From Gammaproteobacteria bacterium (GTDB lineage: Bacteria; Pseudomonadota; Gammaproteobacteria; Ga0077554; Ga007554): a DNA stretch of 42,626 nt. The DNA is taken from assembly GCA_005240065.1 (NCBI GenBank), contig SBBG01000237.1, positions 1-42,626 on the forward strand. The letters run 5' to 3'. A program made the position numbers and the translations under genes. Of the stretch, positions 3,003 through 3,297 are shown in pieces (within the stretch, counting starts at the first letter, position 1; each line of letters starts with the position of its first letter). The notes under the pieces were generated by a model. It had not been told where the DNA came from. It was given only the letters and a program-made list of their open reading frames with translations, and did no database searches.

Positions 3003-3046
3003 GCCTTCAGCTATCCCCGTTTTCAGATTGATCCTGGATTACCTAT

Positions 3047-3196
3047 GGAAGCTCTGAATAATTCCATCCTGGAATTTTCAGGGCAGAAAAGCAAAAATGT
3101 GACTTTTGCTTTTCTTCATTTTTCAATCACTTGGGGTGATTGAAAAATGCTGGCGCCTCCGTGTGCCGCGGAACCTCTGAATTGATCAGAGGTTCC
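3047..3196. mobile_element. MITE-like element with four hairpins
   Basis: TIRs GGAAGCTCTGAATAATTC (3047-3064) and the reverse complement of 3179-3196, GGAACCTCTGATCAATTC (15/18 identical); flanked by direct repeats CCTAT (3042-3046 and 3197-3201); internal stems 3051-3084, 3085-3115, 3117-3149, 3170-3196; no ORF. Confidence 0.7.
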
Positions 3197-3270
3197 CCTA
3201 TCTCTTTTCTCTCTTTTCCCTGTGCAAGCCTTACCTTTACAAGGTTATCAGGGCGTTTTTCACAAATCCC

Positions 3271-3297
3271 TAAAGCTTCTTTAGATCTCGCCGCTAG
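3271..3297 (+). promoter_or_regulatory. Candidate sigma-28 (FliA) promoter
   Basis: TAAAGCTT-N11-GCCGCTAG versus consensus TAAAGTTT-N11-GCCGATAA (7/8 and 6/8), upstream of an MCP gene. Confidence 0.65.

Follow-up and report, generated by a model that had tools for sequence, protein, structure and literature searches.

What is the short, strongly folding segment that lies between mnmE and an MCP gene in this gammaproteobacterial contig: a mobile element, a source of structured RNA, or both? A sequence-only reading had proposed a non-autonomous transposon and/or a source of structured RNA, with four hairpins and a 5-bp duplication of the target. We followed up these proposals within the window (the whole stretch of 42,626 nucleotides), in its host genome, and across related genomes.

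The element in the window

The proposed outline of the element was confirmed, including its bounding CCTAT repeats, the pairing of its first and last 18 bases as inverted repeats (15/18), and the lack of any long ORF between 3047 and 3196. The predicted fold of the element reaches -75.3 kcal/mol compared with -38.6 ± 3.7 kcal/mol for shuffled sequences (z -9.9), and 0 of 200 shuffles folded as well. The folding into consecutive hairpins noted earlier was borne out, whereas their number was not: the family has five, and H4 is partly decayed in this copy. The features, with positions in the window, are as follows.

3042..3046, no strand: left flanking duplication CCTAT, seen in the sequence; the family norm is 4 bp, YTAR-like
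3047..3196, plus strand (orientation H1 to H5): whole 150-bp element, assigned as a five-hairpin IS5-type MITE from its match to covariance model R1 (162.6 bits over 1-152) and its genomic copies
3047..3064, plus strand: left terminal inverted repeat GGAAGCTCTGAATAATTC, which pairs with the right end at 15/18 and resembles IS5-family ends GGAACCTCTGAACAAT
3051..3084, no strand: hairpin H1, minus-strand loop with CCAGGATGG (GGA at 3069-3067), a CsrB-type CAGGAUG element
3085..3115, no strand: hairpin H2, A/T-rich stem
3117..3149, no strand: hairpin H3, perfect 14-bp stem
about 3150..3169, no strand: hairpin H4, partly decayed in this copy, family consensus GCGGCACATCCnTGTGCCGC, GGA at 3160-3158
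3170..3196, no strand: hairpin H5, perfect palindrome formed by the right terminal inverted repeat and its mirror copy
3179..3196, minus strand: right terminal inverted repeat, GGAACCTCTGATCAATTC on the minus strand, matching IS right ends such as AATAAATCAGAGATTCC
3197..3201, no strand: right flanking duplication CCTAT, seen in the sequence

Copies, target duplications, and insertion sites

The host genome, a 2.68-Mb draft, carries about 38 further copies or fragments of the element, which agrees with the earlier expectation of multiple copies with different flanks, although the duplications are typically 4 bp long. An exact 4-bp duplication was found around 51 of 98 full copies, while re-pairing the flanks at random gave a mean of 12.3 and a maximum of 23 in 2000 trials. 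These duplications are YTAR-like, dominated by TTAA, TTAG, CTAA, and CTAG, with the first three most frequent; IS5-derived elements make 4-bp duplications of the YTAR type. The 5-bp CCTAT duplication is real but unique to the window copy rather than a norm of the family, and is probably CTAT plus one extra C. In the single-contig genome G131, where the family has freshly expanded, nearly all of the 41 copies read are 98-100% alike; 37 of them have exact 4-bp duplications, 30 of which are YTAR.

An empty site, which had also been anticipated, was found in a relative: L044 reads GTAATG-TTAA-AAACCC, and L097 reads GATGATG-TTAA-element-TTAA, followed by a second, unrelated small insertion ending in TTAA. 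This second insertion, at about 6778-6980 of L097 and adjoining the element copy, is MITE-like and about 190 bp long, with the ends TCCTACTGTGTCACAAAG and CTTTGTGACACAGTAGGA and TTAA on both sides. The orthologous mnmE site was unusable as an empty site because the gene order differs. In the same gap of two genera, copies were found in opposite orientation (L041/L059 and L027/L069), as expected from independent insertions; these orthologous gaps may have been favoured targets hit more than once, or a copy may have inverted in situ. A same-orientation copy shared by the close genomes L044 and L097 is a case of ordinary common descent. The same sequence at orthologous loci with no copies elsewhere, the pattern that the sequence-only reading had set against a transposon, was not what we encountered. 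In short, the element is small, non-coding, and multi-copy, with terminal inverted repeats, target duplications, an empty site, and a partner with matching ends (see below), and the mobility of the family is well supported by these comparisons of sequence.

Gene positions around the copies were taken from crude codon-usage gene calls, by which most copies are intergenic. Among neighbouring genes with the stop codon facing the element, 24 of 82 end within 10 bp of it, compared with 0 of 76 genes whose start faces it, and the copies of G131 are placed likewise. Target preference alone may be sufficient for this placement, given the stop codons within TTAA, CTAA, and TTAG. Gaps between convergent, tandem, and divergent genes were used about equally, with no significant bias toward the convergent ones, and orientation relative to genes showed no significant bias either (39:28 overall; 10:9 in G131).

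Several altered forms were also seen. An insertion of about 180 bp, whose ends read ACTGTCCGGTTAAA and TTTAACCGGACAGTAG, splits one copy (L026 88-416), and two short derivatives (L036 1501-1585 and L039 1148-1225) are reduced to the pair of terminal hairpins, without H2 and H3. Directly 3' of mnmE in genome G003, at the mnmE stop codon (L137, about 2886-2930), there is a solitary palindrome of about 44 bp, GGAAACGCTGAT..ATCAGCGTTTCC, which is perhaps a minimal relative of the element consisting of terminal repeats only.

IS5-type partner transposases

An autonomous IS with matching ends, expected from the earlier reading, exists in relatives but survives in the host genome as remnants only, where PF05598 gave no match and PF01609 a single remnant. 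Among relatives, loci L139, L170, L141, and L169 carry IS5-family elements whose ends match and which are flanked by 4-bp duplications; the IS of L139 is 1183 bp long with TTAT on both sides, and that of L170 has a CTAA duplication. The two transposases tested both belong to NF033581 (transpos_IS5_4, IS5 family); the L139 enzyme has matches to DUF772 and DDE_Tnp_1 as well. IS5_4 elements with matching ends occur in genomes G007, G016, G032, G028, G131, and G267, with five copies in G131 and about a dozen in G267. The CGCTGA type of end occurs in G267 on both the IS (GGAAACGCTGA) and the MITE (GGAAGCGCTGA), while TCTGA is common to both in other genomes; such sharing of end variants within a genome is as expected if resident ends evolve together. 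In genome G006 (e.g., L142), about two dozen near-identical 402-aa DDE_Tnp_1 transposases represent a recent and separate IS expansion.

In its GGAAnCTCTGA-type terminal repeats and its 4-bp duplications of YTAR-like sites, the element matches the IS5 family (NF033581) and MITEs derived from it. The sequence in common is limited to roughly the outer 17 bp, however, and the interior consists of five conserved hairpins rather than a deleted IS. Taken together, the sequence comparisons support the assignment of the element as a non-autonomous IS5-type MITE, and the matching ends, the duplications, and the common end variants suggest that it would be mobilised in trans by the IS5_4 transposase. 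A search for CsrA sites in the leaders of the IS5 transposases gave no clear pattern.

Distribution and conservation of the five-hairpin build

Searches with the covariance model R1 detected the element in 57 of the 274 gammaproteobacterial genomes sampled, with carriers in 42 of 222 genera. In the sample of the whole phylum, Pseudomonadota, 44 of 399 genomes carried it, some of them from families outside Gammaproteobacteria, and nearly all matches were full length at about 146-155 bp. The named hosts are uncultured Gammaproteobacteria, one Halothiobacillus MAG, and one Chromatiales MAG, and collections of plasmids and phages held no match to the element. The order of hairpins is retained even in some distant copies with very different ends (e.g., in G286, where the end reads CAGGATGCTGAAAAAG and the duplication is CTAA). 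The gene csrA is present in 50 of the 57 carrier genomes and in 185 of 217 non-carriers, so that its co-occurrence with the element shows no association.

Over 82 copies, 92.4% of the stem cells are paired, and sliding the partners lowers pairing to 34-42%; cells changed on both sides number 162, compared with 51 in shuffles. With one representative taken from each of 37 genomes, 30 of the 46 pairs occur as two or more Watson-Crick types. For the count over 82 copies the structure was written by hand; RNAalifold gave a poor consensus on the raw alignment because the gaps in stems were misregistered there. Loci L061-L130 were retrieved by an exact H1 pattern and conservation of H1 among them is by construction, whereas genomes found through BLAST or the model are free of this bias, but the model favours its own loops. 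Within the main subfamily of the host genome the picture is different, as non-Watson-Crick pairs make up 11.5% against 11.8% in shuffled copies, and only 2 of 41 private stem changes are compensated. Covariation across genomes, set beside the lack of compensation among resident copies, indicates that the mobile lineage maintains the structure and that resident copies are decaying. The transposing lineage thus conserves the five-hairpin build, not the sequence.

GGA loops on the minus strand

The conserved loops lie on one strand. CA(N)GGANG motifs number 97 on the minus strand and 7 on the plus strand against 3.75 expected, in related sequences that are not independent trials. Both H1 and H4 carry the motif in 31 of 37 representatives of the class and in 12 of 17 of other classes, and minus-strand H4 reads (A/U)CANGGANG(U/A) in 31 of 37 and H1 holds GGA in 37 of 37, the representatives being related and partly found with a model that favours GGA loops. 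In the other-class set, the GGA loops are kept though the stems are very different. In intact relatives, H4 reads GCGGCACANGGATGTGCCGC on the minus strand, an ANGGAN hexaloop, and H1 carries the CsrB-type CAGGA(U/A/C)G; in the loops of both, A and GGA are fixed and the N positions vary. A GGA hexaloop with precisely this pattern is the site of CsrA/RsmE (PMC7652899). GGA motifs in hairpin loops of the expressed strand mark Csr/Rsm decoys, and the element shows them on its minus strand, which may be the one expressed.

The mismatches in the stems point to the same strand. When only mismatches enclosed by Watson-Crick pairs are counted on the minus strand, again in related sequences, G-U outnumbers A-C by 28 to 6, and the minus strand folds more stably in 34 of 37 and 15 of 17 representatives. 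A plain count by columns gives only a weak strand bias, with G-U and A-C close. DNA-level palindromes, suggested by these near-equal counts, were demoted to a rival explanation after the enclosed-mismatch count revealed a clear strand bias. As a yardstick, 19 tRNAs gave G-U:A-C of 27:0, a weak comparison because the finder favours paired stems.

The earlier suggestion of a structured RNA accordingly finds support for the family, on the opposite strand, but not for the window copy. Transcription from either neighbour, mnmE or the MCP gene, would read the strand that lacks GGA loops, and since H4 is also decayed, this copy is probably inert as RNA. No promoter-like site was found inside it, and it contains two terminator-like sites.

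Similarity to RsmW and other known systems

In Pseudomonas aeruginosa, the sRNA RsmW binds RsmA and is released from a 3' UTR by processing; it was described as lacking homology to the Rsm RNAs known before (PMC4950607). Four diverged elements, from G296 and G391, align with the entire Rfam model of RsmW (RF02809; positions 1-124), in every case on the opposite strand from R1, with scores of 45.6, 42.7, 39.2, and 35.9 bits (E 2e-4 to 0.02; 50 kb, 4227 families). No other Rfam hit in the 50-kb set reached E <= 1, and most elements gave no match to the RsmW model. Since all four scores lie under the curated cut-off of 52 bits (best 45.6 bits, E 2e-4), the relation at the level of sequence and fold is one of similarity, not membership. 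The order of hairpins in RsmW corresponds to H4-H3-H2-H1 of the element, with GGA loops in the first and the last; the element differs in its extra terminal hairpin H5, in being mobile and multi-copy, and in that its CsrA binding is predicted. The Rfam search of the window gave sub-threshold matches only, with no RsmW match for the window copy. Adjoining the element on the minus strand (3200-3281) is a weak TPP-riboswitch-like match of 26.1 bits, compared with a cut-off of 54.3.

REPINs are linked to RAYT (Y1-type) transposases. Like the element, REPIN/REP sequences (PMC3116915) are short, palindromic, non-autonomous mobile repeats between genes, but the element has target duplications and the ends of a DDE transposase. 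Correia/NEMIS, ERIC, RUP, CIR, and other MITEs (PMC2229807, PMC10969869) are likewise non-coding, 100-200 bp long, and flanked by target duplications, with terminal inverted repeats and a stable RNA fold; most form one long stem and CIR two arms (PMC2229807), whereas the element has five consecutive hairpins that covary across classes. With the decoy sRNAs CsrB, RsmX, RsmY, and RsmZ it shares CAGGA(U/A/C)G and ANGGAN hairpin loops (PMC7652899), but it has just two GGA loops, is mobile, and has no own promoter or terminator identified. Among the hits of our literature search, we recognised no paper that contains this repeat or connects CsrA with MITEs.

Weighing the explanations

The explanation that we favour, with moderate confidence, is that the element is a parasite of transposases which carries an RsmW-like RNA predicted to bind CsrA/RsmA. 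IS5-family transposases encoded elsewhere would recognise its ends and move it to YTAR-like tetranucleotides, chiefly in intergenic gaps and in many cases immediately at a stop codon. Its minus-strand H4 and H1 hold CsrA/RsmA-type GGA loops within an H4-H3-H2-H1 order resembling RsmW, and the minus strand would typically be transcribed through read-through in a 3' UTR. The RNA would bind a CsrA/RsmA dimer and would either be a small CsrA decoy or put the host transcript under CsrA, which may have an effect on, or be of benefit to, the element or the host. Counting against this reading are the uncompensated decay of resident copies, the sub-cut-off RsmW scores, the weak bias of the column count, and the lack of an own promoter or terminator. 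Moreover, the presence of csrA does not follow that of the element, copies are oriented almost at random, and both neighbours in the window read the non-GGA strand; because of these three, a plain IS5-type MITE retains a sizeable minority share of the probability. Its hairpins would then be DNA palindromes aiding transposition or re-made by template switching, with the GGA loops and the RsmW likeness coincidental. All of the evidence for mobility fits this as well, as do the composition of both end hairpins from the terminal repeat and its mirror copy, the arm-by-arm decay of resident copies, the close G-U and A-C column counts, and the missing links to csrA and to orientation. It leaves unaccounted for, however, that the internal hairpins H2-H4 covary without containing a terminal repeat, that one-strand GGA loops persist in two particular hairpins despite complete change of stems and ends, that enclosed mismatches are strand-biased 28:6, and that the four full-length RsmW matches are strand-consistent.

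It is improbable that the element serves as a mobile 3'-UTR insulator or terminator, whose hairpins would stop read-through or RNA decay and whose insertions would be tolerated, as with REP/ERIC-type elements. The placement near stop codons (within 10 bp for 24/82 stops but 0/76 starts) and the two terminator-like sites of the window copy would suit such a role, but copies show no conserved T-run after a hairpin and use all gap types alike, the YTAR target itself includes stop codons, and a terminator has no need of conserved GGA loops. That the element is a stationary structured RNA, a gene or part of a UTR passed on vertically, is hardly credible: the conserved, covarying fold and the one copy common to L044 and L097 at an orthologous site could be read in this way, but dozens of copies with site-specific duplications and an empty site already contradict it, as do the near-identical dispersed copies of G131 and the opposite orientations in orthologous gaps.

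Meaning for Csr/Rsm RNAs

A mobile, RsmW-like element addresses the question of where the Csr/Rsm decoy sRNAs originate, and suggests that RNAs which capture the global regulator CsrA/RsmA can spread as mobile DNA. Tentatively, and short of an even chance, we propose a transposon-borne family of CsrA/RsmA-binding RNAs that has taken one RNA build, with five hairpins and two GGA loops, through at least two classes of Pseudomonadota; Csr/Rsm sRNAs such as RsmW may be its domesticated descendants or its source. If true, this would be a bacterial MITE family with an RNA fold as its conserved cargo, in which the stems drift while the two protein-binding loops are fixed. The number of copies could then set the dosage of CsrA, and elements landing beside stop codons would explain how RsmW-like RNAs appear in new 3' UTRs.
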